A DNA stretch of 64,000 bases, from contig NZ_JANFQF010000012.1 of the NCBI RefSeq assembly GCF_024438035.1, positions 124,001 through 188,000 of the forward strand, read 5' to 3'. This DNA is from Rhodococcus tibetensis (GTDB lineage: Bacteria > Actinomycetota > Actinomycetes > Mycobacteriales > Mycobacteriaceae). Of this stretch, positions 4,067-18,253 are shown one piece after another (positions within the stretch are counted from its first letter, which is position 1; the number at the start of each line of letters is the position of its first letter). The position numbers and the translations under genes are program-made. The notes below the pieces were generated by a model that was not told the origin of the DNA, searched no databases, and saw nothing but the letters and a program-made list of their open reading frames with translations.

Positions 4067-5449
4067 ATGCCCAGCTCCGCGCTGTCCGCGCGCGCCGAGA
4101 ACACCTCTCGGCGCCTACCGAAGTGGGCGGGCTCGTTCGGCCCACAGATCGTCACCGGCCTCGTCGTCGGCGTCATCCTCGGGCTCGTCGCCCGATCCTT
4201 GCCCGCAGCCGCCGACGGAAACGAGAACTGGCTCGTCGGCACCGTCCACACCATCGGCACGAGCTACGTCAAACTCCTCACCGTCGCGGTGATCCCGCTG
4301 GTGTTCACTGCCATCGTCAGCTCCATCGCCAACCTACGGGAAGTGGCCAACGCCGCCCGGCTGGCTGTCCAGACCCTCCTGTGGTTTGCGATCACCGCGT
4401 TCATCGCGGTGGTCATCGGAATCGTCGTCGGACTTCTCACCCAACCCGGCGCACACACGACGGTGACCGGCGAAGGCAAGGAGCCGGCAACCACCGGATC
4501 GTGGTGGGCGTTCGTCACCGGCTTGGTGCCCAGCAACGTCCTCGGCCTGAGCGCGAAAACTACCGTTACCGAAGGTGCGGCCAGTACGTCGCTGAGCTTC
4601 AATGTGCTGCAACTACTGGTCGTGGCCGCTGCCATCGGTATCGCCGCACTGAAGGTCGGCGCCAAAGCGGAGCCGTTCCTGCAGGTCAACGCCGCCTTGC
4701 TGGCAATCGTGCAGAAGGTGCTGTGGTGGATCATCCGCCTCGCTCCGATCGGCACCGCCGCGCTGATCGCCAACGCGGTCGCCACGTACGGCTGGGATGC
4801 CATCGGCTCGCTGGGCTGGTTCACTGCTGCCGTGTACATCGGGCTGGCCCTGGTGTTCCTTGTCGTCTACCCCGTCCTGATCCGTGCCCACGGGCTGTCG
4901 GTGCGTGCCTTCTATTCCGGCGTGTGGCCCGCCACCCAGCTCGGGTTCGTCTCCCGGTCGTCGATCGGCACCCTCCCCCTCACCGAGCGCGTCGCCGAAC
5001 GTAATCTCGGCGTCCCCCGCGAGTACGCGTCGTTCGCGGTCCCACTCGGAGCGACCACCAAGATGGACGGGTGCGCCGCCGTCTACCCCGCCATCGCCGC
5101 GATCTTCGTCGCCCAGTTCTACGGTGTTCCGCTGTCCGTCACCGACTACCTGCTGATCGTCGTGGTGTCGGTGATCGGGTCGGCGGCCACCGCAGGCACC
5201 ACCGGTGCCACGGTCATGCTGACGCTGACCCTGTCGACGCTGGGTCTGCCCCTCGCCGGAGTGGGACTCCTGCTCGCCGTCGAACCGATCGTCGACATGG
5301 GCCGCACCGCGGTGAACGTCACCGGTCAGGCGCTCGTCCCGACGATCGTCGCCAAGCGTGAAGGCATCCTCGACGAGGTCCGATACAACGCCGAACGCAA
5401 CGGTGACCCGTTCGCCGACGAGGAAGACGCGGCCGAGGCCGCCGCATAA
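4067..5449 (+). CDS. dicarboxylate/amino acid:cation symporter (DAACS family)
   Basis: 460-residue polytopic membrane protein of the GltP/DctA family, which takes up C4-dicarboxylates or acidic amino acids with H+ or Na+. Many hydrophobic segments are visible. Family signatures are the serine-rich re-entrant hairpin (SRSSIGTLPLT), the segment TKMDGCAAVYPAIAAIF (usually NMDGT in the family; here KMDGC) and a second hairpin ATAGTTGATVM. The C-terminus is acidic. The N-terminus is MPSSALSARA at the ATG 4067, with only a weak AAAGG upstream. It is a single-gene unit closed by a hairpin terminator. The KMDGC deviation touches the substrate/cation site, so specificity is uncertain. Confidence 0.85.
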   Translation: MPSSALSARAENTSRRLPKWAGSFGPQIVTGLVVGVILGLVARSLPAAADGNENWLVGTVHTIGTSYVKLLTVAVIPLVFTAIVSSIANLREVANAARLAVQTLLWFAITAFIAVVIGIVVGLLTQPGAHTTVTGEGKEPATTGSWWAFVTGLVPSNVLGLSAKTTVTEGAASTSLSFNVLQLLVVAAAIGIAALKVGAKAEPFLQVNAALLAIVQKVLWWIIRLAPIGTAALIANAVATYGWDAIGSLGWFTAAVYIGLALVFLVVYPVLIRAHGLSVRAFYSGVWPATQLGFVSRSSIGTLPLTERVAERNLGVPREYASFAVPLGATTKMDGCAAVYPAIAAIFVAQFYGVPLSVTDYLLIVVVSVIGSAATAGTTGATVMLTLTLSTLGLPLAGVGLLLAVEPIVDMGRTAVNVTGQALVPTIVAKREGILDEVRYNAERNGDPFADEEDAAEAAA

Positions 5450-5450
5450 C

Positions 5451-5475
5451 GAAGGCTCGACGAGGGCCTTCTTTT
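5451..5475 (+). terminator. Rho-independent terminator after the symporter gene
   Basis: GAAGGC (5451-5456) pairs with GCCTTC (5466-5471) and is followed by TTTT. It starts directly after the symporter stop codon and ends 18 bp before the next start. Confidence 0.6.
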
Positions 5476-5493
5476 CATGGAAGGCTCTCGTCC

Positions 5494-5910
5494 ATGGCCG
5501 ATGTCAACACGTTGAAGTGGCGGATCATCACCCAATTCCAGAAGCGGGTCCTCAACCCGGTCACCACTCGGTTGCCGAGCCAGACGCTTCTGGAAACCGT
5601 CGGACGCAAGAGCGGTGAGCCGCGCGTCACGCCGATCGGTGGGCAGCGAACCGGCAACCAGTTCCGGCTCGTCTCCGAGCACGGCGAGCAGTCGAACTAC
5701 ATCCGCAACATCCGCGCGAACAACGCCGTGCGACTGCGACTGCACGGCATGTGGCACACGGGCACCGCGACCGTGCTGCCGGACGACGACGCCGTCGCCC
5801 GCCTGGCGCAGCTCCCGCGGCTCAACAGCGCTGCGGTCCGCGTGGTCGGCACCGACCTACTGACCGTGCGGGTCGATCTCGTAGACCGCGAAACGAGCAG
5901 CTTGCAGTAG
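5494..5910 (+). CDS. deazaflavin-type nitroreductase family protein (Ddn/DUF385-like)
   Basis: 138 residues, the usual size of the F420-dependent Ddn-like family with a split-barrel fold. The core ETVGRKSGEPRVTPIGG followed by SEHGEQSNYIRNIRAN resembles the family pattern of G-R-x-S-G and a later W/N-x-x-N segment. Members bind F420 or act as quinone or fatty-acid-binding proteins. The start is ATG 5494 with GGAAGG 10 nt upstream (5479-5484). It sits just after the symporter terminator and before the glutamate-synthase-like operon, with no obvious tie to either. The exact cofactor cannot be settled from sequence. Confidence 0.65.
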   Translation: MADVNTLKWRIITQFQKRVLNPVTTRLPSQTLLETVGRKSGEPRVTPIGGQRTGNQFRLVSEHGEQSNYIRNIRANNAVRLRLHGMWHTGTATVLPDDDAVARLAQLPRLNSAAVRVVGTDLLTVRVDLVDRETSSLQ

Positions 5911-5914
5911 AGAC

Positions 5915-5928
5915 TTAGCCTCGGCTAA
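5915..5928. promoter_or_regulatory. TTAGCC-TC-GGCTAA dyad ahead of the gltB-flavodoxin operon
   Basis: Perfect 6-bp arms separated by 2 bp, 4 bp after the previous stop and about 160 bp before the gltB-like start. The TTAG...CTAA ends recall DtxR/IdeR iron boxes, but the site is shorter than the 19-bp consensus. The loop is too small for a normal terminator. A role in iron-dependent control is a guess, made because flavodoxin genes are often iron regulated. Confidence 0.35.
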
Positions 5929-6091
5929 TCTGCGATTTCGCGTGGACTCGTCAGGGTCCGCACTACAGACAACGACGTCTGCCTCACCGGCGTATCGGTT
6001 CGGGGCCGGTTCTCCGCCGTGATCCTCTCGCCGACGCCACCCGTGTGCTGCACGGACCCTATTTCGGCGAGTATCGCGAGGAGACAGTCGG

Positions 6092-9000
6092 TTGAACACG
6101 AGTGCCACCGAGTCCGGCCTGTACGACAGGACGCTCGACAAGAGCAGCTGCGGCGTGGGCTTCATCACCCGCAAAGACGGCGTGCAGACCCCGGATGTTC
6201 TGGCTCTGGGCAATGAGGCTCTGTGTGCTGTTCCTCACCGCGGTGGCATGTCGGCCGAGGGCGTCGGTGACGGGGCCGGCATCTGTATCGACCTCTCGGT
6301 GCCCTTCTTCCGCGCCCTCACCGGACGGGGAGAGCTGGAGGCTTGTCGCTTCGGTGTCGGCAACTTCTTCCTCCCCACCGACGTCGCGTTCCACGCCGAC
6401 GCCGAGGCCGTCATCGAGCGGGCCCTCGCCGAGCAGGGTTTCGAGGTGCTGCTCGAACGTGACGTCCCAGTCGACGCCACCGTGCTGCGTCCCGCCGCGA
6501 TCAAGTACCAGCTGCCCATTCGCCAGTGGGTCTTCACCGCTCCCGAGGCGTGCACGGACGGGGTCGAGTTCGACCGCCGCATCCACGACGCTTTGCTCGC
6601 CATCGAGGCTGTCGCCTACACCCGACCGGACCTCGCCGGGATGTATCCGCTCTCGCTCAGCGCTCGCACGCAGGTGCTCAAGGGTCGCCTCAATTCCCAT
6701 GAGGTGATCCCGTACTTCTGTGACCTGGTCGATCCGGCTCACGCCGTCCACACCCTGTTCTTCCACACCCGGTTCTCGACCAACACCGACCCGCACCCGA
6801 CGATGGCGCAGCCGTTCCGGCTCATGGCGCACAACGGCGAGCTCAACACCGACAAGAAGAACCGGCTCTCCGAGACGGCCGTGGCCCGGGCCAGGAACCG
6901 GGAGATCGTTCGTCCGCACGGGCAGTCGGACAGCTGCCGTCTCGATCAGACGCTGCAGAGCCGTGTCGTCGAGGACGGCCTCGATCTCGTCACCGCCGTC
7001 GTGTCGATGATGCCTCCCGCATGGGAGAACGACACGAACCTCTCCCCCGAGGTCCGGGCGATGCTCGAGTACTTCTCCCTCTACGAGGAGAAGAACGACG
7101 GCCCGGCCGCGGTCATCTTCGGGAACGGGACCGTGGTCGGAGCGCGTCTCGACCGGCTGGGGTTGCGTCCGCTGCGCAGCGTGGAGACCGACGACTACCT
7201 GTGCGTCACCTCCGAGGCAGGGCAGATCGACTTCGACCCCGACACGGTGCGTCACCGCGGACGCATAGAAGCGGGCGGCATGCTGTACTTCGACCACCGC
7301 GAGGGTCGCGCGTACTCCTCCGAAGAGGCGCTCGAGCTGCTGGCCGGCCGGCACGACTACTGCGCCCTCGTCGCCGAAGCGCGCCACACCATCGACGCCC
7401 TGCCCGAGGTGGACGCCGAGCCCGGCCCACTGCGCTACAACGGCGACCTGGAACGCCATCAGCGGTACGTCGCGTACTCGCACAACCAGGAAAGCTTCAA
7501 GTTCATGATGGATCCGATGCTGGCGTCGGGTCAGGAGAAGATCTCCGCGATGGGCTACGGCAATGCCATCAACGCGCTTTCCGACCAGGAAGGTGGTGTG
7601 GCCAAGTACTTTTCGCAGCGTTTCGCGCAGGTCACCAACCCTTCGCTGGACAGCATCCGGGAGTCGGACGGCATGACTCTGCGGGTCGCGTTGGGCGCCA
7701 AGCTGCACAGCGGTGCAGAGTCTGCCCCGCAGATCGTGGTGCCGTCGCCGATCCTCACACACCTGGACATGCTGCGGATCCGCAAGCAGACCGAGACGCC
7801 GGTGCAGCGTTTCCCGATGCTGTACAGCCCTGTCCCTGCTGACGCCGCTGCCAACGCGGCCGCGCTCGAGGCTGCGGTGGACGGATTGTGCGACGAGGTG
7901 GAAGCGTTCGCCCGCGAACGCGGCGGCATCGCGATCCTCACCGACCGGCATGTCGCCACCGACCGCGCCGCCCTGCCGATGATCATCGCGATCTCCGCCG
8001 TCAATCAGCGGCTGATCGAGGCGGGTCTGCGTCTGCGGGTGTCGGTGGTGGCCGAGAGCGGGCAGATCTCCTCCTCGCACCACGTGGCCGCTGCACTCGG
8101 GTTCGGCGCCGCCGCGATCTACCCCCTCGCCGTCCGTCTGCGCGCCGAGGAGAAGTTCGCGGACAACGCGGACGAGGCGTTCAAGCGCTTCGCCAAGGCG
8201 GCCGAGAAGTCGTTGATGAAGACGATGGGCCGGGTCGGCCTGTGCACCGCCGAAAGCTACATCGGGGGCGAGTTCTTCGAACCCAACTACCTCGACACCG
8301 ACGACCCGGTTCTGCGCCGCTTCTTCGCGAACGTCAAGACACCCGTGGGTGGTGTGGGATTCGCCGTGATCGCCCAGGCCGTCGCGGACTGGCACGCAAA
8401 GGCTTTGACAGTCACCGGGGAGAAGGACGTCCCGCTGCTCGGCCTGTTCAAGGAGCGCGCGGAAGGCGCCGGTCACTCGTACGGCACGGCTGCCGTGCGC
8501 GGCTTCGTCGACCTCACCGAGGAGCCGATCGCGTTCGACACCGCCGGTACCCAGGACCACACGGAATCGCTGCGACTGCTGCCGTTGAACCGGCTCGGGG
8601 ACGCGTTCGGTCTCGACGACGACGCCTACCGCAACGCCGGCTTCCAGAAGCTGACGCCCGAGACGATCGACGGGTTCGACATCACCCCCGGCTACCGGGC
8701 GTTCGCGCGGACGATGGCGGAGGAGCGCACTCGTCGTCCCGCGGCGCTGCGCGACGTCCTGGACCTGCCTGCCGACGTCACGTTCCTCACCACCGCGCAC
8801 GAGTTCCGCCGGCAGATGGGCAGGTTCTCCCGTCAGGGCAACAACAGTTTCGCGGTTCGTGGCCTCGCATCCGAGCAAGTCGGGGACGACGAGTTCCGCC
8901 TGCGACTCACCGGCCCGCACGCCGGCGACCCCACCGTGCTCGCCGCGCTGGGTGAGTCGCTGATCCTGCGGTTCGGTGACGACCTCCGTGAACATCGGAT

Positions 9001-11584
9001 CGACGACGACGCCCTCGTCGTCCGGGCGTCCGGTGAGGCACTGCGATGCCTCGCCCTGCTGCGCACCGCGCCGCCCAGCGTTCCGATCGACACGGTCCAG
9101 AAGGCCAGTGAGATCACCCCGTTCCTCACGTCCGGCGCCATGAGCCACGGCGCGTTGAACTCCAATGCGCACGAGGCCGTCGCACACGGCACGAACATGG
9201 TCGGCGGGATGTCGAACAGCGGCGAGGGCGGCGAGCACATCTCCCGCTACGGCACCATCCGCGGTTCCCGGATCAAACAGTTCGCGTCCGGCCGCTTCGG
9301 TGTGTGGGCCGGCTACCTGGCCGACCCGATGCTCGAGGAACTCGAGATCAAGATCGCGCAGGGCGCCAAGCCCGGCGAGGGCGGGCAGCTGCCCGCACCC
9401 AAGGTGACCGTCGAGATCGCGGCCGCCCGCGGCGGCACACCCGGCGTCGAGCTCGTCTCGCCCCCACCGCATCACGACACCTACTCCATCGAGGACCTCG
9501 CGCAGCTGATCCACGACTGCAAGGCGGCACGGGTTCGCGTCATCGTCAAGCTCGTGTCCTCGGAGGGTATCGGGACCATCGCGGTGGGTGTCGCGAAGGC
9601 CGGCGCAGATGTCATCAACGTCGCCGGCAACACCGGCGGCACCGGCGCTGCTGCGGTCACCAGCCTCAAGTACGCCGGGCGTTCCGCCGAAATCGGTGTG
9701 GCCGAGGTTCATCAGGCACTGTGCGCCAACGGTTTGCGGCAGAAGGTGCTGCTCCGGTGTTCCGGCGCGCACCAGACGGCGAGTGACGTGGTGAAGTCGG
9801 CGCTCCTCGGGGCCGACAGCTTCGAGTTCGGCACCACCGCGCTGATGATGCTCAAGTGCGTCATGGCCAAGAACTGCAACATCAAGTGCCCCGCCGGCCT
9901 CACCACCAACCCGGAACTGTTCGACGGTGACCCGCGGGCCATGGCGCAGTACCTGCTCAACATCGCCCACGAGACTCGGGAGGTGCTCGCCGAGCTGGGC
10001 ATGACCTCATTGCGTGAGGCTCGCGGCCGGTCCGACCTGCTGCACCTGCTCGACCACCCGTCGAGTGTGGGCCAGCTCGACCTGCGGGCGATGCTCGCGG
10101 TAGTCGACGAGGTCACGATCGGTGATCCGGTGTATCTCGAGAAGGACTACACACTCGACGACGGCTGGCTGGTCCAGCTGCGGGCGGCCCTGGTCGAGCA
10201 GGGCCAGTCCACCGTCGAACTCGGTGACGGTGTGCGGCTGAGCAACCGTAACAAAAGCGTCGGCGCACAATTGGCCATCGACATCGAACGCATGCTCAAT
10301 CACGAACTGACCGAACAGGTTCTGCCGGCAGTGCTTCGTGACGAACGTGGTCGCGGTTACCTGCGCGAGGGCAGCGTCCGGATCTCCACCTCCGGGTCCG
10401 CGGGCCTGTCGTACGGCGCGTTCTGCAACGACGGTATGTCCCTCGTCCACACAGGCACCGCCAACGACGGTGTCGGCAAGGGTGCCAACGGCGGCAGCAT
10501 TGCCGTGTGCTCGCCCGGTGGCGGCTCAGACCTGCACGGCGGCAACGTGCTGATCGGCAATTTCGCCTTGTTCGGGGCCACCGGTGGACGCACGTTCGTC
10601 GAGGGTCAGGCCGGTGACCGCTTCGCTGTCCGCAATTCGGGAGCCACCGCAGTGGTCGAGGGCGTCGGCGATTTCGCCTGCGAGTACATGACCAACGGCG
10701 CGGTGCTCAACCTCGGCGGGTTCGGCAAGGGTGTCGGCAACGGAATGAGCGGCGGGTTCGTCTACCAATACGACCCCGAGGGCAAGCTGCCCGGCAAGGC
10801 CAGTGCCGATTCCATCCTGCTCGGTTCGATCACCGGCGACGACGAGCACGCGGCACTGCACCACCAGGCCGTGCACGTGCTGCTCGGCTGGCACCTCGCG
10901 GCCACGGGGTCCGCGAAGGCGGCATGGCTCCTCGAGAACTGGGAGACCGAGCAGCACCACTTCGTGTACGGCATGCCGCGTGCACTGCTGCAGTACCAGG
11001 ACAGCGACGAAATCCTGAAAGCCAAGCCTCGCAAGGACTTGGCCGACGAACTCGCCGCGGCACTGGTGGCGCACCAGGTACGCAAGTTCAAGCTGGACTA
11101 CCGCGACGGTCACGCAGTACTGGGCGGCGCAGTGCCCGGCTACGGCGAGGCCGACACCGAAGCCATGTTCGCGCTGCTGAACAACTACACGGTGCTGAAC
11201 GCGGCGCAGGAGATGGCGCTGTCCAAGCTGCCGGGTGCCGCGGATCCGTCCGATCCGGCGGTCGACAAGGCCGTCCGCAACCTGCTGCTCACCGAGGACT
11301 TCTTCCTCATGCAGCGACTGCAGCGGTACGCCCGCGAAGCCCTGAAGGGTTACAGCGACGAGGACCTGGCGGTGATGGTGGCGGCCAAGCGCCTCGCCGA
11401 CTACAAGGATGCGCTGCGCCGCCGCAACGTCCGGTCCATCGACGCCCCCGGTACCTACGGCTGGATTCTGCACCAGGATGCGAAGAACGTCGACAAGATC
11501 GGCCGGCTGCCCGGTTTCGAGGAACTGTTCGCGCAGCACGCTCTCCCCGATCTGATTCCCACGAGAGACGTGGTCCCCTCATGA
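6092..11584 (+). CDS. gltB: divergent glutamate synthase (GltB-like) large subunit
   Basis: 1830 residues; bacterial GltB is usually about 1500. It would make glutamate from glutamine and 2-oxoglutarate. Visible domains in order: type II glutamine amidotransferase with nucleophile-like Cys20 (KSSCGVGF) and HTRFSTNTDPHP; central domain (about 460-770, QVTNPSLDSIRE); an extra stretch about 895-1000; FMN synthase domain (about 1005-1390, GAMSHGALNSNAHEA, GEGGEHISRY); and a GXGXG beta-helix (about 1410-1600). The iron-sulfur motif reads CVMAKNCNIKC, i.e. C-x5-C-x3-C, one residue shorter than the usual C-x5-C-x4-C. About 190 residues follow the normal end. The start is TTG 6092 with GAGGAG 8 nt upstream. 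The stop overlaps the diflavin reductase start (ATGA). There is no gltD. Activity as a true GOGAT is likely but not proven. Confidence 0.8.
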   Translation: MNTSATESGLYDRTLDKSSCGVGFITRKDGVQTPDVLALGNEALCAVPHRGGMSAEGVGDGAGICIDLSVPFFRALTGRGELEACRFGVGNFFLPTDVAFHADAEAVIERALAEQGFEVLLERDVPVDATVLRPAAIKYQLPIRQWVFTAPEACTDGVEFDRRIHDALLAIEAVAYTRPDLAGMYPLSLSARTQVLKGRLNSHEVIPYFCDLVDPAHAVHTLFFHTRFSTNTDPHPTMAQPFRLMAHNGELNTDKKNRLSETAVARARNREIVRPHGQSDSCRLDQTLQSRVVEDGLDLVTAVVSMMPPAWENDTNLSPEVRAMLEYFSLYEEKNDGPAAVIFGNGTVVGARLDRLGLRPLRSVETDDYLCVTSEAGQIDFDPDTVRHRGRIEAGGMLYFDHREGRAYSSEEALELLAGRHDYCALVAEARHTIDALPEVDAEPGPLRYNGDLERHQRYVAYSHNQESFKFMMDPMLASGQEKISAMGYGNAINALSDQEGGVAKYFSQRFAQVTNPSLDSIRESDGMTLRVALGAKLHSGAESAPQIVVPSPILTHLDMLRIRKQTETPVQRFPMLYSPVPADAAANAAALEAAVDGLCDEVEAFARERGGIAILTDRHVATDRAALPMIIAISAVNQRLIEAGLRLRVSVVAESGQISSSHHVAAALGFGAAAIYPLAVRLRAEEKFADNADEAFKRFAKAAEKSLMKTMGRVGLCTAESYIGGEFFEPNYLDTDDPVLRRFFANVKTPVGGVGFAVIAQAVADWHAKALTVTGEKDVPLLGLFKERAEGAGHSYGTAAVRGFVDLTEEPIAFDTAGTQDHTESLRLLPLNRLGDAFGLDDDAYRNAGFQKLTPETIDGFDITPGYRAFARTMAEERTRRPAALRDVLDLPADVTFLTTAHEFRRQMGRFSRQGNNSFAVRGLASEQVGDDEFRLRLTGPHAGDPTVLAALGESLILRFGDDLREHRIDDDALVVRASGEALRCLALLRTAPPSVPIDTVQKASEITPFLTSGAMSHGALNSNAHEAVAHGTNMVGGMSNSGEGGEHISRYGTIRGSRIKQFASGRFGVWAGYLADPMLEELEIKIAQGAKPGEGGQLPAPKVTVEIAAARGGTPGVELVSPPPHHDTYSIEDLAQLIHDCKAARVRVIVKLVSSEGIGTIAVGVAKAGADVINVAGNTGGTGAAAVTSLKYAGRSAEIGVAEVHQALCANGLRQKVLLRCSGAHQTASDVVKSALLGADSFEFGTTALMMLKCVMAKNCNIKCPAGLTTNPELFDGDPRAMAQYLLNIAHETREVLAELGMTSLREARGRSDLLHLLDHPSSVGQLDLRAMLAVVDEVTIGDPVYLEKDYTLDDGWLVQLRAALVEQGQSTVELGDGVRLSNRNKSVGAQLAIDIERMLNHELTEQVLPAVLRDERGRGYLREGSVRISTSGSAGLSYGAFCNDGMSLVHTGTANDGVGKGANGGSIAVCSPGGGSDLHGGNVLIGNFALFGATGGRTFVEGQAGDRFAVRNSGATAVVEGVGDFACEYMTNGAVLNLGGFGKGVGNGMSGGFVYQYDPEGKLPGKASADSILLGSITGDDEHAALHHQAVHVLLGWHLAATGSAKAAWLLENWETEQHHFVYGMPRALLQYQDSDEILKAKPRKDLADELAAALVAHQVRKFKLDYRDGHAVLGGAVPGYGEADTEAMFALLNNYTVLNAAQEMALSKLPGAADPSDPAVDKAVRNLLLTEDFFLMQRLQRYAREALKGYSDEDLAVMVAAKRLADYKDALRRRNVRSIDAPGTYGWILHQDAKNVDKIGRLPGFEELFAQHALPDLIPTRDVVPS

Positions 11585-13350
11585 AGATGCCCTACATCCC
11601 CCAGGACGCCCCGTTCAGCGAGGACCAGCGTGTGTGGCTCACCGGCTTTCTGGCCGGAATGAGTTCCCGTCTCGCGGTCGGCAGCAATTCCGACGCGCCC
11701 GCTGCCGCCGCTGGGCAACTCCCCGCTGTCCACGTGCTGTACGGCAGCCAGACCGGCAACGCCGAGGGCGTCGCCGAAGATGCTGCCGCCGCGGCACGTT
11801 CGCACGGCTTCGCGCCGGTGGTCAGTGCGCTCGACGACGTCGAGGTCGACGCCCTGGTGTCGATGCAACGTGTGCTCGTCGTCACCTCCACCTACGGTGA
11901 GGGCGAAATGCCCGACAACGCGGAACTGTTCTGGCAGGCGCTGTCCGCGGAGACCGCGCCGCGATTGGAAACCACCGACTTCGCCGTGCTCGCACTCGGC
12001 GACACCGGCTACGACGGGTACTGCCAGGCCGGCAAGATGATCGACACCCGGCTCGAGCAGCTCGGCGCCCGCCGGGTTACTCCACGCGTCGACTGCGACG
12101 TCGACTACGAGGACACCGCCGCCGCATGGGTCGCCGACACCCTCCCCTTGTTCGCGGCCGTCGAAGGCATTCGCGGCGAGTCCCCCGTCGCCGCTGTCGC
12201 CGAGCCCGAAACGAAGCCGGCCCGCAAGCGGTCGCAGTGGAACCGCAAGAACCCCTACGTGTCCACACTGGCTGTCAACCGGAGGCTGTCGGGTGACGCC
12301 TCCGCGAAGGAGATCCGGCACTACGAGTTTGCACTGGCCGACAGTGGTCTCGAGTACGAGGCCGGTGACGCGCTCGGTGTGATGCCGATCAACGATCCCG
12401 CGCTCGTCGACGCTCTGGTGTCCCGGCTGGGCATCCCGGCGGACGCCGCCGTCACCGGCAAGGAACGTCCGTTCAGCGATCTGCTGATGCACTCTTGCGA
12501 AATCTCCACGCCGTCCCACGAATTCCTCGACGAGATCGAGAAGCGGGCCGGGAACGACGAGTTGACTCACGTCCTCCGGCACGGTGACAAGGAGGCACTC
12601 GATGCGTGGCTGTGGGGCAAGGACGTCCTCGATCTGCTACTCCTCGCTCCTGCGCTGTCGATGACCGCCGACGAGTTCGTGGGGGTGCTCAAGCCTCTGC
12701 AGCACCGGGCGTACTCCATTTCGTCGAGTCCACTCGCCGACCCCGGCAGTGTGCACCTCACCGTGGCCAGCGTCCGGCACACCTCCGCCGGTCGGGACCG
12801 CGGCGGTGTGTGCTCGACCTACCTGGCCGACCGTGTCGCCGAGGGCAGTACCGGCGGAATCTTCGTATCCAAGAACAAGTCGTTCCGCGTGCCTACCGAC
12901 GATCACGCGCCAATGATCATGGTGGGCCCCGGAACCGGTATCGCACCGTTCCGCGCGTTCCTGCAGGAACGCCAGGCGCGGGGCGCGTCGGGGCGCAACT
13001 GGTTGTTCTTCGGCGACCAGCACCGCGCGTCCGACTACATCTACGAGGACGAGATCGGTGCCATGAGCGACAGCGGTCTCCTCACCCGTCTCGACCTCGC
13101 CTTCTCCCGCGACCAGGCCGGGAAGATCTACGTCCAGAACCGGATGCTCGAGAACGGCAAGGAACTCTTCGCCTGGCTCGAGGACGGCGGCCACTTCTAC
13201 GTGTGCGGCGACGCAACCCGCATGGCGAAGGACGTCGATCGGGCACTGCACCAGGTGATCGCCACCCACGGTGGTCTCTCGGCCGAGGATGCGTCGGAGT
13301 ACGTCAACAAGCTCAAGAAAGACAAGCGCTACCTACGCGACGTGTACTGA
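11581..13350 (+). CDS. CysJ-like diflavin reductase (flavodoxin + FAD/NADPH domains)
   Basis: 589 residues. The N-terminal leader (APFSEDQRVWLTGFLAG) precedes a flavodoxin domain with FMN loop YGSQTGNAEGVAED, TSTYGEGEMPDN and LGDTGYDGYCQAG. It continues with an FAD domain (RAYSISSSP, GGVCSTYLAD) and an NADPH domain (MVGPGTGIAPFRAFLQER, FYVCGDATRMAKDV). The chain ends in KRYLRDVY, with the terminal aromatic residue typical of CysJ/P450-reductase enzymes. Such enzymes pass electrons from NADPH through FAD and FMN to a partner. No sulfite reductase hemoprotein is nearby. ATGA overlap with the gltB-like gene and the flavodoxin 37 bp downstream suggest it feeds the synthase. The electron acceptor is inference. 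Confidence 0.85.
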   Translation: MKMPYIPQDAPFSEDQRVWLTGFLAGMSSRLAVGSNSDAPAAAAGQLPAVHVLYGSQTGNAEGVAEDAAAAARSHGFAPVVSALDDVEVDALVSMQRVLVVTSTYGEGEMPDNAELFWQALSAETAPRLETTDFAVLALGDTGYDGYCQAGKMIDTRLEQLGARRVTPRVDCDVDYEDTAAAWVADTLPLFAAVEGIRGESPVAAVAEPETKPARKRSQWNRKNPYVSTLAVNRRLSGDASAKEIRHYEFALADSGLEYEAGDALGVMPINDPALVDALVSRLGIPADAAVTGKERPFSDLLMHSCEISTPSHEFLDEIEKRAGNDELTHVLRHGDKEALDAWLWGKDVLDLLLLAPALSMTADEFVGVLKPLQHRAYSISSSPLADPGSVHLTVASVRHTSAGRDRGGVCSTYLADRVAEGSTGGIFVSKNKSFRVPTDDHAPMIMVGPGTGIAPFRAFLQERQARGASGRNWLFFGDQHRASDYIYEDEIGAMSDSGLLTRLDLAFSRDQAGKIYVQNRMLENGKELFAWLEDGGHFYVCGDATRMAKDVDRALHQVIATHGGLSAEDASEYVNKLKKDKRYLRDVY

Positions 13351-13387
13351 GCACGCCCGCACCAACTTACGAGGAGAAGCAAGAAAC

Positions 13388-13837
13388 ATGGCAGTGGTGA
13401 TTCTGTACGGCAGCGAGGGCGGAACCGCCGAACTGGTAGCCGATCATCTCGCCGACGTGCTCGGCGCCTACGACGACACGTCCCTGTACGACATGATGGA
13501 GTTCGACGCGGGTGATCTCGACCCCGAGAATTTCCACGTCATCGTGTGCTCCACCTACGGTGAGGGCGAGCTGCCCACCGGCGCGGAACCCTTCTTCGAG
13601 GGTCTCGAGGAGGACGAGCCAAATCTGACGGGTCTGCGATTCGCGCTCTTCGGCCTCGGCGACAAGGTCTACGAAGACACCTACAACCGCGGCGGCGAGA
13701 TCATCGCGGAGAAGCTCGCCTCCCTCGGCGCGGTACAGGTTGGCGAACACGGCCGGCACGATGGGTCCAGCACCATCCGCCCCAAGGACCAGGCCGAGGA
13801 GTGGGCCAAGATCATCGGCGAGGAGTTCCTGGGATAG
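13388..13837 (+). CDS. flavodoxin (MioC/CysJ-like)
   Basis: 149-residue single-domain flavodoxin, cytosolic. FMN-binding loops visible: YGSEGGTAELVAD (phosphate loop), STYGEGELPTGAEPF and LFGLGDKVYEDTYNRGG. It is acidic, as expected for an electron carrier. The start is ATG 13388, preceded by GAGGAGAAG. It is the last gene of the gltB-diflavin reductase operon, so a natural reading is a shuttle from the reductase to the synthase, or an alternative acceptor. Similar short flavodoxins in other bacteria serve biotin synthase and other radical enzymes, so other partners are possible. Confidence 0.85.
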   Translation: MAVVILYGSEGGTAELVADHLADVLGAYDDTSLYDMMEFDAGDLDPENFHVIVCSTYGEGELPTGAEPFFEGLEEDEPNLTGLRFALFGLGDKVYEDTYNRGGEIIAEKLASLGAVQVGEHGRHDGSSTIRPKDQAEEWAKIIGEEFLG

Positions 13838-13842
13838 ACACC

Positions 13843-14706
13843 TCACGCCGGGAGCGGGGACTGAACGCTTCGCACCCACTCTCGACTCCCGGCGAGGTAG
13901 CGGTCCCGCGCCGCGGCGAAGAGGCGAACACTGTCGGATCCAGGCCAGTCCTCGGGCAGCATGCCGGCGGGCAGGCCCGGGTCGATGTACGGAATGATGC
14001 GCCATTCGTCGAGCAGCGGAACGAAGCGGACGAAGGCCTCGCGCGGCGAAACCTCCTCTGCCGCCGGGAGAGCAGCGCGGTGATGGTTCAGGAATTCTCG
14101 GTGACGGGCAGCGATGCCGCCCAGATCCCACCACCGCGCCGCCGCGTCCGCCATCGAACCGGGCACGGACATCGACGTGGACACGAAGGTGATCACATAG
14201 TCGGACAGGCCCAGTGCGTCGACGATGTCCCCCACCTCACCCGCGAGATACTCGGGGGCGATCCACAGACCCGCTGACACGGCGCCGCACCCGATCCACC
14301 CGAGCCGCCTGCGCAACTGGTGTCGCGCTGCCCGTTGCGATTCGGGGATGGTGAACGAGATCAGCCGCCAGGGGTCGGTGTCCGCCATCTGACGGAAGCC
14401 GAAGATCCGCGGATCGCCGCGTCTGAACATCGCCTCGGCCTGCTCCGTCACCTCGTACCCGCTCCGCCCGTCGCGGGTCAGCGGCCGCAGCACCCCCTTC
14501 TTCTTCAAGCGGGCCACGGCGATCCGCGTCGATTCGGACGGGATACCGACGGCTTGCATCAATTCCACGAAGTCGGCGATCGCAACCCACCCGCCGAGGT
14601 CGCGCACGTACGCGCCGAGGACGGTCCGGATCAGCGACGTCGCGCTGCCCGGCCGCGAATCGAAGTCGTCGAGGATCGCGCTCGCGGGTTCAGTCGGTGA
14701 GTTCAT
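13843..14706 (-). CDS. PaaX-family transcriptional regulator
   Basis: 287 residues. The N-terminal winged-helix part (SLIRTVLGAYVRDLGGWVAI, TRIAVARLKKKGVL) and the PaaX C-terminal domain (WRLISFTIPESQRAARHQLRRRLGWIG as a scan, then a DUF-like tail with LDEWRIIPYIDPGLP) are both present. PaaX repressors classically sense phenylacetyl-CoA-type aromatic CoA esters. Here ATG 14706 overlaps the end of kynU by 17 bp, so the regulator is the third gene of the kynA-kynU operon and probably controls it. Its ligand might be a tryptophan breakdown product; this is inference. It converges with the flavodoxin gene, whose stop lies 5 bp away. Confidence 0.8.
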   Translation of the reverse strand: MNSPTEPASAILDDFDSRPGSATSLIRTVLGAYVRDLGGWVAIADFVELMQAVGIPSESTRIAVARLKKKGVLRPLTRDGRSGYEVTEQAEAMFRRGDPRIFGFRQMADTDPWRLISFTIPESQRAARHQLRRRLGWIGCGAVSAGLWIAPEYLAGEVGDIVDALGLSDYVITFVSTSMSVPGSMADAAARWWDLGGIAARHREFLNHHRAALPAAEEVSPREAFVRFVPLLDEWRIIPYIDPGLPAGMLPEDWPGSDSVRLFAAARDRYLAGSREWVRSVQSPLPA

Positions 14707-15925
14707 CACGGATCGCGAGTATCCCGGCACACACCTCGGAGAAGCTCGTACTCAGCGGGCTCAGGCCGAGCCGCAGCCCCTGCGGGGCCCGGAAATCGGG
14801 GATGACACCCTTCTGCCACAACCTTTCGATGACAGCCTCGAATCGCTGGTGGTCGATGATCACGTGACCACCCCGCTCGGCGGGATCCTCCGGCGATCCG
14901 ATCTCTACGCCCAACGGAGTCAACAACTTCCGCACGAGTTCGAGCGCGTATTGCGTCAGCGCCACCGACTTGGCCCGAACGGCCTCCATGCCGACCTCGT
15001 CAATCAGCGCGAGAGTGTCCTGCATGGCGATCATGCCGAGGACAGACGGCGTTCCGCTGATCACCCGCCGGATGCCGGGCGCCGGTCGGTAGCCCTGCTC
15101 CATCGCGAACGGGTTGTCGCGGCCCATCCAGCCCCAGATCGGCTGCACGAAGTCCTGCTGATGTTCGGCGCGAACGTAGGCGAACGCCGGTGAGCCCGGA
15201 CCGCCGTTCAGATACTTGTACGTGCACCCGACCGCCAGATCGACACCCCACGTGTCGAGTTCGAGGGAAACCGAGCCGACGGAGTGACACAGGTCGAGCA
15301 GCAGGAGCGCACCGGCGTCGTGCGTCACGCGAGCGGCGCCGGCGGCGTCGACCAGGTAGCCCGAGCGGTACGCGACGTGGCTGAGCACGACGAGTGCGGT
15401 GTGTTCGGAGACCACGGACTTCAGGTCGCCGGTGGTGACGCCGCCGCGGGTATCGGACTCGATCCACCGCAACGTGAGCCCGAGTTCTCCGGCGACGGCC
15501 TCGAGCACGTACCGGTCCGTAGGGAAGTTGTCGCGGTCCACGACGATCTCGGTACGGTCCGGCCGCAACGCGAGCGCACCTCGCGCGAGTTTGTACAGCA
15601 GGACCGTCGTCGAGTCGCCGATAGTGGTCTGCCCGGCGGCCGCGCCGAGCGCCACCCTCGCGAGGGTGTCCCCGATCGTGATCGGAAGTTCGAACCACTC
15701 CTCGTCCCATCCGCGGATCAGCCGGCTACCCCACGCCTGGGTGACGAAGGAGTTGATCCGCTCGGCACTCGACTTGGTGGGCCGTCCGAGAGAGTTGCCG
15801 TCGAGGTACGCCACGACCGCGGGATCGTCGGCGCCGATGAACAGGTCACGGTAGGAACGCAGCGGATCCGAGGCGTCGAGTTCCTCGGCCCGGGTAGTCA
15901 GCACATCGGTCGACGCGGTCATCAT
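14690..15925 (-). CDS. kynU: kynureninase
   Basis: 411-residue PLP enzyme that cleaves kynurenine to anthranilate and alanine. Signature parts are YLDGNSLGRPTKSS near the N-terminus, DLCHSVGSV with the PLP-ring Asp, and the PLP lysine Lys237 in CTYKYLNGGPGSPAF. The family-typical W-G-W-x-G segment appears as PIWGWMGRDNPFAM. The ATG at 15925 overlaps the kynA stop (ATGA); an ATG at 15922 is equally in frame. The length matches bacterial KynU. It lies between kynA and the PaaX-type regulator on the same strand. Confidence 0.93.
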   Translation of the reverse strand: MMTASTDVLTTRAEELDASDPLRSYRDLFIGADDPAVVAYLDGNSLGRPTKSSAERINSFVTQAWGSRLIRGWDEEWFELPITIGDTLARVALGAAAGQTTIGDSTTVLLYKLARGALALRPDRTEIVVDRDNFPTDRYVLEAVAGELGLTLRWIESDTRGGVTTGDLKSVVSEHTALVVLSHVAYRSGYLVDAAGAARVTHDAGALLLLDLCHSVGSVSLELDTWGVDLAVGCTYKYLNGGPGSPAFAYVRAEHQQDFVQPIWGWMGRDNPFAMEQGYRPAPGIRRVISGTPSVLGMIAMQDTLALIDEVGMEAVRAKSVALTQYALELVRKLLTPLGVEIGSPEDPAERGGHVIIDHQRFEAVIERLWQKGVIPDFRAPQGLRLGLSPLSTSFSEVCAGILAIRDELTD

Positions 15926-16776
15926 CGTCCGATCTCGGTGCGTACGGCCAGCAGTTCGGGGAAGAACGTCAGCTCCAGTGCCTTCTGCAGAAATCCCACT
16001 CCGCTCGATCCTCCCGTGCCGGACTTCATGCCGATGGTGCGCAGAACCGTGCGCATGTGGCGAAAGCGCCACAGCTGGAAGTTCTCCTCGAGGTCGACGA
16101 ACTCCTCGAAGGCCTCGTAGACGGCCCAGTGCTCGTCGTGGTTCTCGTAGATGAACTTGATCAGGGGCATCAGGTCCTCGTTCAGCGTGTAGGCGGTGGT
16201 TATGTCGCGGTCCAGCGCGGAGGCCGGCACGTCATACCCGAGCCGCGACAGGCACTGCCAGAACGCGTCGTACAAACTCGGCTCGGTGAGGAGTCGCCCC
16301 AGCAGATCGTGGGCGGCGGGATCGGCTTCGAATACCTTCAACATGTCGGCGTTCTTGTTTCCGAGCACGAACTCGACGGCGCGGTACTGGTAGGACTGGA
16401 ACCCCGACGAGTTGCCGAGGAATTGGCGGAATTCCGAGTACTCGGTGGGGGTCAGCGTGGCCAGCACCGACCACTGTTCGGTCAGCGTCTTCTGGATGTG
16501 CTTGACGCGGGCCACGCACTTGAGCGCCCGGCCGATCTCGTCCGCGTCGAAAGCGGCTCGGGCCGCCAGTGTTTCGTGCAGAACGAGCTTCAACCAGAGT
16601 TCGGTGGTCTGGTGCTGGATGATGAACAGCAGTTCGTCGTGATGCTCCGGCCGGCTCACCGGTTTCTGCGCGCTCAGCAGGGTGTCGAGGTCGAGGTACG
16701 CGCCGTAACTCATTCGCTTGCTGAAGTCGGTGACGATGTCTCTCTCGATGGCTCTGGTGTTGGCCTGCACGCCCAT
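15922..16776 (-). CDS. kynA: tryptophan 2,3-dioxygenase
   Basis: 284 residues; heme enzyme that opens the indole ring of tryptophan to N-formylkynurenine, the first step of the kynurenine route. Active-site signatures: EHHDELLFIIQHQTTELWLK with His55 near the substrate, GNSSGFQSYQYR, and NFQLWRFRHMRTVLRTIG, which carries the proximal heme His. The start is ATG 16776 (MGVQANTRAI); an upstream GTG-type extension adds only MRTV. First gene of the kynA-kynU-regulator operon, divergent from the formamidase-like gene. The control region between them holds a 13-bp palindrome. Confidence 0.93.
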   Translation of the reverse strand: MGVQANTRAIERDIVTDFSKRMSYGAYLDLDTLLSAQKPVSRPEHHDELLFIIQHQTTELWLKLVLHETLAARAAFDADEIGRALKCVARVKHIQKTLTEQWSVLATLTPTEYSEFRQFLGNSSGFQSYQYRAVEFVLGNKNADMLKVFEADPAAHDLLGRLLTEPSLYDAFWQCLSRLGYDVPASALDRDITTAYTLNEDLMPLIKFIYENHDEHWAVYEAFEEFVDLEENFQLWRFRHMRTVLRTIGMKSGTGGSSGVGFLQKALELTFFPELLAVRTEIGR

Positions 16777-16849
16777 GACTGTCCTCACTACTGGTGTTCG
16801 AGTGCCGGGCTCTCGACCTTCATATTACATAATCGTGGCGACCGCTATA

Positions 16850-16862
16850 CAGATGTCATCTG
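16850..16862. promoter_or_regulatory. 13-bp palindrome between kynA and the divergent hydrolase gene
   Basis: CAGATG-T-CATCTG, perfect 6-bp arms, in the 105-bp divergent intergenic region, 19 bp before the hydrolase start. It is a good candidate operator for the PaaX-like regulator or another factor controlling both directions. A TATACA at 16845-16850 overlaps it and could be a -10 element for the plus-strand gene. Confidence 0.45.
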
Positions 16863-16881
16863 GAAAAAGTAGGGTAGATCC

Positions 16882-17976
16882 GTGAACCAACCCACGCGCC
16901 GAGTCGACGTCGTCTTCGCGCCGGGGGCCGTGGCGCACCGCGGAACCGCGGAGGAACTCGTGCACCGGGCAATGGCTGCACGCGGCCTGACCGGCGAGTT
17001 GACGTTCGCTCTGGACACCGCCGGGCTGGAGCGGGCCGTGCAGTCGGCGGCGGGGCGAGGCGAGCTCATCGTCGTGCCCGGTGCCGGGGCACCCTTCACT
17101 GCCCCAGCCTGCGGGGTGATCCGCGTCGACTTCGGCGAATGTGAGGCAGACCGCGCAGCGGGCGTCCGCGTCCACATTCGCGGCAGGGGTCTCGACGGAC
17201 TCCGCTACGCCGTGGACAGCTGGTATCACCATCGCTTCCATCCCGCACGGATCGTCCGCTACGGCGACCACCCCGATCAGCGAGTGGAACTGCGGATTCC
17301 GGGCGGCGACGGCCCCTTCCCCGTCGCCGTGCTCATCCACGGCGGATTCTGGCGGCCACGCTGGGAGTCCGACCTGATGGATGCGCTGGCAGTCGACCTG
17401 ACGGCCCGCGGGTACGTCACCTGGAATGTCGAGTACCGGCGGGGCGCGGAGAACCGCTGGGCCGCAATGGAGTCCGATGTCGCCGACGCCGTCCAGGCCG
17501 TCACGACCGTCCCGGAGGCGGACCCGGGTCGAGTCGTCGTCCTCGGTCACTCGGCTGGCGGTCAGCTCGCGCTCCGCGCCGCTGCCGACGCCGTTGGTGC
17601 CGCAGTGCGTCCAGCGCTGGCCGTCAGCCTCGCCGGTGTCCTGAATCTGCGGCTCGCGGACGATCGCCACCTCGGCGAAGGCGCCGTGGCGATCGCCGTC
17701 GGTAGTGACTGGGCCGGGGACCGCGTGACGTACGAGGAGTCGTCGCCGATCGATCGACTCCCTCTCGGCATCCCACAACTGGTGGCCTCCGCCCTGCAAG
17801 ACGAACCGGACATGCTGGAGATGAGCAGGGAGTACCACGCAGTCGCCGCAGCGACTACCGATGACGTCGTGCTGATCGAGGGGCCCGGCGATCACTTCGC
17901 CGTCATCGATCCGGCAAGCCGGATCTGGCACACCATCGCCGAGGTAATCGACGCACGGATGATCCCCGGCGCGTAG
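16882..17976 (+). CDS. alpha/beta hydrolase, probable kynurenine formamidase, with extra N-terminal domain
   Basis: 364 residues in two parts. The C-terminal part (about 140-355) is an esterase-type alpha/beta hydrolase: oxyanion motif HGGFWR, nucleophile elbow GHSAGG, and a late GDHF with the catalytic His. HGGxW plus GxSAGG is the pattern of eukaryote-type arylformamidases, which convert N-formylkynurenine to kynurenine. That is the missing step between KynA and KynU next door. The N-terminal part (about 1-115) resembles a degenerate type II dehydroquinase-like flavodoxin fold (ELIVVPGAGAPFTAP, then VRVHIRGRGLDGLRYAVDS). GTG start at 16882 with AGTAGGG upstream. The formamidase role is inferred from motif and neighbourhood; the N-terminal assignment is tentative. 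Confidence 0.7.
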   Translation: MNQPTRRVDVVFAPGAVAHRGTAEELVHRAMAARGLTGELTFALDTAGLERAVQSAAGRGELIVVPGAGAPFTAPACGVIRVDFGECEADRAAGVRVHIRGRGLDGLRYAVDSWYHHRFHPARIVRYGDHPDQRVELRIPGGDGPFPVAVLIHGGFWRPRWESDLMDALAVDLTARGYVTWNVEYRRGAENRWAAMESDVADAVQAVTTVPEADPGRVVVLGHSAGGQLALRAAADAVGAAVRPALAVSLAGVLNLRLADDRHLGEGAVAIAVGSDWAGDRVTYEESSPIDRLPLGIPQLVASALQDEPDMLEMSREYHAVAAATTDDVVLIEGPGDHFAVIDPASRIWHTIAEVIDARMIPGA

Positions 17977-18000
17977 AAGCCGGCACCCGCACAGTAAATC

Positions 18001-18095
18001 CCCGGCGCCGCACCCACACACGCGCCCCTTCTGCGCCCACGCACCCGTTTTCGGACCCTGGAACGGGTGCGTCTGACGAAAAGAAGTGCGCGAGT
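18001..18095. repeat. palindromic dispersed repeat, copy 1 (eroded)
   Basis: A stretch of about 74 bp nearly identical to 18643-18716. Its centre is an 11-bp inverted repeat, ACGCACCCGTT / AACGGGTGCGT, around a TTCGGACCCTGG-like loop. The outer arm match (CGCGCCCCTTCT against AGAAGTGCGCG) is imperfect here. Lies in the 277-bp gap before the Excalibur gene, right after the hydrolase gene. No gene is visible in this gap. Confidence 0.75.
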
Positions 18096-18253
18096 CACTC
18101 GGCACGGATGTCATTCACTCGACTGACAACGAACCTCCCTGACCTACACCGGGTTTCACGCTCCGCTATGCCGTGGCTAACATCCGACAGTGCGGTTCGC
18201 CTATTCGGCCCCGCGTCCTGTCGCAGCCCACCCCCTATGAACGAGGAAACACC

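Follow-up and report, generated by a model that had tools for sequence, protein, structure and literature searches.

In Rhodococcus tibetensis the gene for a GltB-like glutamate synthase large subunit is followed directly by a gene for a CysJ-like diflavin reductase, and this pair is the conserved unit among relatives. The operon may encode an iron-starvation isoenzyme of glutamate synthase, iron-repressed and iron-sparing, in which a flavin reductase replaces GltD with its two [4Fe-4S] clusters; this reading is given an even chance. The wider proposition, that such enzymes form a third, diflavin-dependent class of glutamate synthase in Actinomycetota and Proteobacteria, controlled by iron repressors in at least two lineages and sustaining glutamate formation when iron is too scarce for the three-cluster GltBD, is put forward tentatively, at slightly less than an even chance. 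We infer both the reaction of the GltB-like enzyme and its iron regulation from comparison of sequences, which suggests one new element, iron-repressor-like boxes upstream of many GltB-like homologs: in two lineages the upstream regions of homologs contain candidate operators for IdeR/DtxR or for RirA, iron repressors that are unrelated to each other.

Operon layout and protein features

The window (the whole 64-kb stretch of R. tibetensis DNA that was analysed, GC content 66.7%) was re-read, and the GltB-like gene, the ATGA-overlapping CysJ-like reductase gene and the flavodoxin gene of the preliminary description were all confirmed (Table 1). The ATG of the reductase gene at 11581 overlaps the TGA of the GltB-like gene at 11582–11584, and the flavodoxin most likely starts at the ATG at 13388 rather than at the mechanically called GTG at 13271. 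That neither gltD nor a sulfite reductase hemoprotein lies nearby was borne out by profile scanning of 12 window ORFs (six neighbours within 4067–18114 and six further ones), among which none was recognised. Just upstream of the operon and in its orientation (4067–5910, + strand) lie genes for a symporter of the dicarboxylate/glutamate type and a quinone reductase of the F420 type, and convergent genes of tryptophan catabolism (PaaX-type regulator, kynureninase and tryptophan 2,3-dioxygenase) occupy 13843–16788 on the − strand.

Table 1. Features of the operon, in window coordinates
Feature	Position	Strand	Basis or remark
DtxR/IdeR-like operator candidate TTAGCCTCGGCTAATCTGC	5915..5933	.	13/19 to IdeR/DtxR consensus
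Shine-Dalgarno GAGGAGA, then TTG start of the GltB-like gene	6078..6084	+	sequence
GltB-like glutamate synthase large subunit, 1830 aa	6092..11584	+	Pfam domains; PDB GltS matches
Class-II glutamine amidotransferase domain, residues 20–423	6149..7360	+	C20, HRG 49–51 and HNGE 247–250 conserved
Glu_syn_central domain, residues 458–730	7463..8281	+	profile, structure match, alignment
Family-specific insertion, residues ~803–990, includes a small alpha/beta domain	8498..9061	+	canonical GltB without it
FMN/synthase domain, residues 994–1304	9071..10003	+	profile, alignment
Cluster-ligand motif C1256-VMAKN-C1262-NIK-C1266	9857..9889	+	C-x5-C-x3-C; canonical C-x5-C-x4-C
GXGXG beta-helix domain, residues 1410–1585	10319..10846	+	profile
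Family-specific C-terminal extension, residues ~1634–1830, predicted helical	10991..11581	+	alignment; AF2
CysJ-like FAD/FMN/NADPH diflavin reductase, 589 aa	11581..13350	+	profile and PDB matches; gene adjacency
Free flavodoxin (cindoxin/MioC-like), 149 aa, lineage-specific	13388..13837	+	profile and structure matches

Profile search assigned to the GltB-like protein the Pfam domains GATase_2, Glu_syn_central, Glu_synthase and GXGXG in the usual order, and in the sequence the catalytic cysteine is residue 20, behind a 19-residue propeptide. Compared with solved glutamate synthases the protein is longer by about 160 residues between its central and FMN domains and by about 195 at its C terminus; a 144-residue AF2 model of the insertion domain (mean pLDDT 78) gave weak matches only in the PDB, and helices of the C-terminal extension were predicted at pLDDT of about 80 inside an overall poor model. 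When eight family members were aligned with the two canonical GltB copies of the same genome, C20, H49-R50-G51, N248-G249-E250 and M487 were invariant, as were E1045, K1087, K1093, Q1099, R1113 and E1134; the roles of these residues other than M487, contacts to 2-oxoglutarate included, are taken as assumptions. As judged by this alignment, the family retains site residues in the glutaminase domain, the central domain and the FMN-synthase domain. M487 aligns with Azospirillum Met479, which is placed between cluster and FMN in a review (PMC8097209).

For comparisons between loci, relatives carrying the C-terminal extension were collected in a genome scan (234 stretches, of which the best 80 were used) and joined with 5 of 9 plasmid records to give a set of 85 loci. 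The motif C-VMAKN-C-N[IVL]K-C was present in 84 of these 85 (the best 80 of 234 plus 5 from plasmids; the protein of the remaining locus, L066, begins at residue 1261), and both canonical copies of the same genome have C-x5-C-x4-C in the alignment, differing from the C-x5-C-x3-C of the GltB-like protein. Near the FMN site the family has SGAHQT, against DGQLKT and DGGMRT in the two canonical copies.

The diflavin reductase contains Flavodoxin_1, FAD_binding_1 and NAD_binding_1 domains (Pfam) and aligns with almost the full length of the CysJ model; CysJ-like diflavin reductases are of a type without an iron-sulfur cluster. Among solved structures the window flavodoxin is closest to cindoxin. 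A second diflavin-wired, probably nitrogen-related enzyme is encoded elsewhere in the genome (L052:5688-9851, contig C7), where a nitrate-reductase-like molybdoenzyme is fused to a CysJ-like diflavin module with 46–48% identity to the window reductase.

Distribution and gene neighbourhood of the family

Nine plasmid records matched the GltB-like protein at 64.5–76.9% identity over 99–100% of its length, the remaining 31 matches listed (best 40 of 102) lay at 34.3–37.2%, and no further record exceeded 60%. Identity to the canonical GltB copies of the same genome was 38% and 37%, and in a FastTree phylogeny 78 family members were split from these two copies with full support, the rows nearest the window protein being those of Rhodococcus opacus, koreensis and jostii. 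The family spans Actinomycetota, Alphaproteobacteria and Betaproteobacteria; its 43 proteobacterial rows form one clade (support 99) amid actinobacterial rows, a placement that fits one inter-phylum transfer in a tree in which some deep rows are long branches. Searches at E ≤ 1e-200 detected the gene in 72 of 401 genomes from the taxonomic family to which the window belongs and in 2 of 296 genomes drawn from its phylum (own genome counted in both). Four annotated plasmid records name the first gene 'glutamate synthase-related protein' or gltB and the second 'sulfite reductase subunit alpha' or cysJ. Five genomes of one genus (G438, G543, G574, G585 and G620) have one stop codon inside each GltB-like match, and in G371 the gene appears as two ORFs with residues 499–816 unmatched; decay, frame errors or a match overrunning the true stop are possible causes.

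The diflavin gene lies directly 3' of the GltB-like gene in all 85 loci (the best 80 of 234 plus 5 from plasmids), at distances from overlap to 69 nt and of zero or less in 41 of them; for two reductase genes no start codon could be assigned, and an overlap of 139 nt, the largest one, probably reflects a mis-set start. The reductase gene was also next in the 31 loci from the taxonomic-family and phylum surveys that extend that far. The three-gene order of the preliminary description is thus conserved as to its first two genes, and its third member is local: in the same 85 loci a flavodoxin gene is adjacent in five (four of the R. opacus/jostii group and one Rhodococcus MAG), and it is not next in 79 of the 84 loci that continue past the reductase, all proteobacterial ones included (in L104 the contig ends inside the reductase, so that the next gene is not visible). 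Since it is adjacent in so few of these best 80 plus 5 plasmid loci, a flavodoxin step is not general.

A HemS-like third gene was present in 18 of the 85 loci (again the best 80 of 234 plus 5 from plasmids), under nine genus labels and in both phyla; in several loci of mycobacteria and nocardiae it overlaps the reductase gene. Nine of nine aligned members matched Pfam HemS, and their profile matched Yersinia HemS over most of its length (E ~1e-30). Haem degradation is not claimed for this protein, because the haem-ligand histidine, at its presumed position in the alignment, does not look invariant. No HemS was found in the R. tibetensis genome. Downstream of the operon in Ketogulonicigenium vulgare come genes for an AraC regulator, a TonB siderophore receptor and hydroxamate uptake; no biosynthetic cluster recurred beside the operon across distant genera in the flanks compared.

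Elsewhere the R. tibetensis genome encodes two complete ordinary gltBD pairs, each with its own large subunit, one short GltB-like protein, and four siroheme NIR/SIR-type proteins that are all on other contigs. Of the other genomes in the taxonomic family that have the GltB-like gene, 71 of 71 also encode GltD; because ordinary gltBD pairs or GltD coexist with it, the GltB-like/diflavin enzyme is an extra, accessory one. The preliminary description had named two observations that would count against its wiring, a separate gltBD pair serving the GltB-like protein and homologs with gltD but without the reductase/flavodoxin. Neither was seen in strong form: both pairs have their own GltB, and every homolog whose neighbourhood was visible had the reductase.

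Candidate iron-repressor operators

Upstream regions were scored against the 19-bp IdeR/DtxR consensus. The window candidate is a perfect inverted repeat (TTAGCC-TC-GGCTAA) about 160 bp before the start codon, with TTAG-N6-CTAA spacing as in mycobacterial boxes, and is the only site of at least 13/19 in the 64 kb; a degenerate 14-bp pattern of it matched once in the genome, whereas its reversed control matched twice, so that chance alone would be expected to yield a site of this kind. Boxes of at least 14/19 were found in 14 of 37 actinobacterial family upstreams, mostly of Mycolicibacterium and Nocardia, against 0 of 28 canonical gltB upstreams (p 0.0001), and in 7 of 31 upstreams of a second family sample against the same 0 of 28 (p 0.01); at the threshold of at least 13/19 the counts were 24 of 37 against 5 of 28 (p 0.0002) in the first sample and 12 of 31 against 5 of 28 (p 0.09), no clear excess, in the second, all of these p-values overstating the significance because related genomes are not independent. 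On the tree a box of at least 14/19 requires six changes. The 13/19 of the window is the level reached by 5 of 28 canonical gltB upstreams, that of its own gltB1 included (L140; the others are L150, L155, L157 and L167); ordinary GOGAT may be iron-responsive too, or 13/19 sites may occur by chance. Flanking DNA of the family loci held 11 sites of at least 13/19 in 488,535 bp, and the scan found no box in the Rhodococcus phenolicus/coprophilus clade.

The M. wolinskyi genome contained six distinct sites of at least 16/19, against one for the backwards control. One precedes the GltB-like operon, three lie beside genes for a siderophore-interacting protein, a PPE protein and a DUF2470 protein, and the remaining two, at a lumazine synthase/oxidoreductase pair and a methyltransferase/YjbR pair, are not at obvious iron genes. 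The box between the lumazine synthase and oxidoreductase genes (L178) hints at iron-controlled flavin supply.

In Rhizobiaceae a different sequence was found. TGA-N9-TCA, the RirA palindrome, which is present in 5 of 10 RirA peaks according to PMC8822346, occurred in 28 of 36 Rhizobiaceae family upstreams (8 of 36 were without it), compared with 21 of 263 control upstreams taken from the other ORFs of these loci. The extended form TGACT-N7-TCA occurred in 26 of 36 against 0 of 263 control upstreams, a contrast that is partly built in because the motif was derived from the family sites themselves. Among half-site spacings 9 is prominent; a spacing of 6 is elevated as well (16 of 36), in part because both occur within some sites. 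One Agrobacterium genome gave five matches to the extended motif against one for the backwards control: the GltB-like operon, rirA (itself in the RirA regulon according to PMC5863699), a further Rrf2 regulator with a reductase-like neighbour, a copper-ATPase region and a site without a called ORF. At L170 (Agrobacterium) the same TTGACT-N7-TCA site is common to a second regulator gene of the Rrf2 family and a divergent gene for a thioredoxin-reductase-like protein. No group-wide ICE or Fur signal was found in the proteobacterial family members. These RirA-type sites are candidate operators of the Rhizobiaceae homologs, not of the window operon.

Proposed mechanism, alternatives and known systems

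In the iron-starvation isoenzyme, electrons would pass from NADPH to FAD and FMN inside the diflavin reductase, which would dock on the GltB-like protein, perhaps via the insertion, the C-terminal extension or both; from the reductase they would reach the modified cluster of the GltB-like protein and then the synthase FMN, which would reduce 2-iminoglutarate to glutamate, with 2-oxoglutarate and glutamine-derived ammonia as inputs. The swap would drop the two [4Fe-4S] clusters that GltD carries in GltBD (PMC8097209), much as flavodoxin stands in for ferredoxin in low iron, and the iron saving would be partial because three cluster cysteines remain in the GltB-like protein. Two further proteins, the flavodoxin in the R. 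opacus group and the HemS-like protein in other lineages, would take part in this low-iron response as optional components. Ordinary glutamate synthase counts among the putative targets of the iron-sparing RNA IsrR and among the putative or demonstrated ones of RyhB, and having a substitute for low iron would make sense; the same source, which treats the ordinary enzyme as a putative enzyme to turn down under iron shortage, reports no significant effect of IsrR on gltB2 mRNA stability (PMC9410917).

The same wiring could serve another product, the enzyme reductively aminating a different oxo acid with glutamine-derived ammonia in iron starvation, for example for a siderophore precursor. Such a role would suit the family-specific changes around the FMN site and cluster, the inserted domain and the extension, the retention of ordinary GltD in each of the 71 other genomes carrying the gene, and the iron-type boxes upstream of homologs, but the residues taken as 2-oxoglutarate contacts do not differ between the family and the canonical rows and the flanks compared lack a recurrent biosynthetic cluster across distant genera; we consider it unlikely, though far from negligible. 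Less probable still is a function in iron release, in which the diflavin reductase would serve ferric siderophores or haem bound to HemS, with a role outside nitrogen assimilation for the GltB-like protein. The HemS-like neighbour with its Yersinia HemS match and the siderophore genes of Ketogulonicigenium point that way; against them stand the 67 of 85 loci (best 80 of 234 plus 5 from plasmids) with no HemS-like next gene (counting L104, whose contig ends first), the lack of a HemS in the window's genome, the apparently variable haem-ligand histidine (at its presumed position) and the retained amidotransferase and synthase residues.

The preliminary description had proposed a third wiring, NADPH to diflavin reductase to free flavodoxin to synthase. 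The diflavin reductase in GltD's place is upheld by adjacency in 85 of 85 loci (best 80 of 234 plus 5 from plasmids), and the flavodoxin as obligatory carrier is not: although it is next in the window, as in five of those loci, it is absent as next gene from 79 of 84, where one encoded elsewhere is possible, and the reductase already has a flavodoxin domain, so that an obligatory flavodoxin is very improbable. Scarcely to be expected, finally, is that the two neighbouring genes have a loose functional link, with canonical GltD or ferredoxin reducing the GltB-like protein. GltD is available in all 71 other genomes with the gene, but the pair is adjacent in all 85 loci (the same best 80 plus 5) across two phyla, about half of them overlapping or touching, and the loop of ferredoxin-GOGAT is absent from the protein.

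Glutamate synthase is a central enzyme of nitrogen assimilation and a user of several iron-sulfur clusters. If the iron-starvation reading is true, the operon would represent a flavin-for-cluster swap in a core pathway, a different solution to low iron, and a direct link between iron and nitrogen control; the reading makes predictions that can be tested in harmless soil bacteria, and the present gene names, 'glutamate synthase-related protein' and 'sulfite reductase subunit alpha', could be corrected. No GOGAT with diflavin wiring was described in the literature matches listed, as far as their excerpts extend, which agrees with the preliminary description, whose author knew of none characterised; the word 'diflavin' occurs zero times in the GltS review PMC8097209.

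With GltBD the GltB-like protein shares the four-domain architecture, the N-terminal catalytic cysteine, the FMN barrel, three cluster cysteines and the GXGXG domain. It differs in its partner, a CysJ-like reductase instead of a GltD with FAD and two [4Fe-4S] clusters, in a cluster loop one residue shorter and in the added insertion and C-terminal extension; against the NCBIfam GltB equivalog NF008730 it scored 1038.4, narrowly below the cut-off of 1047, and the canonical copies of the same genome scored 1696 and 1581. Ferredoxin-dependent glutamate synthase also works without GltD, and the Synechocystis enzyme (1LLW/1OFD) has the same core domains; the loop before the SAIKQ segment of 1LLW, which we take to be the ferredoxin loop, is absent from the window protein and eight family rows, and the GltB-like gene, unlike that of ferredoxin-GOGAT, has its own diflavin gene next to it. 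The window reductase shares with CysJ the N-terminal segment and the FMN, FAD and NADPH domains (best PDB matches 6EFV and 9C91), scoring below the cysJ equivalog cut-off (615 vs 668) and passing the one set for the more general 'sulfite reductase subunit alpha' model (488 vs 432); its partner, however, is GltB-like, and no CysI was recognised adjacent among the 12 window ORFs scanned. The molybdoenzyme of the same genome likewise joins a diflavin module to a probable nitrogen-assimilation enzyme, but there the module is fused to a molybdopterin enzyme, whereas in the window the diflavin reductase is encoded separately, with GltB.
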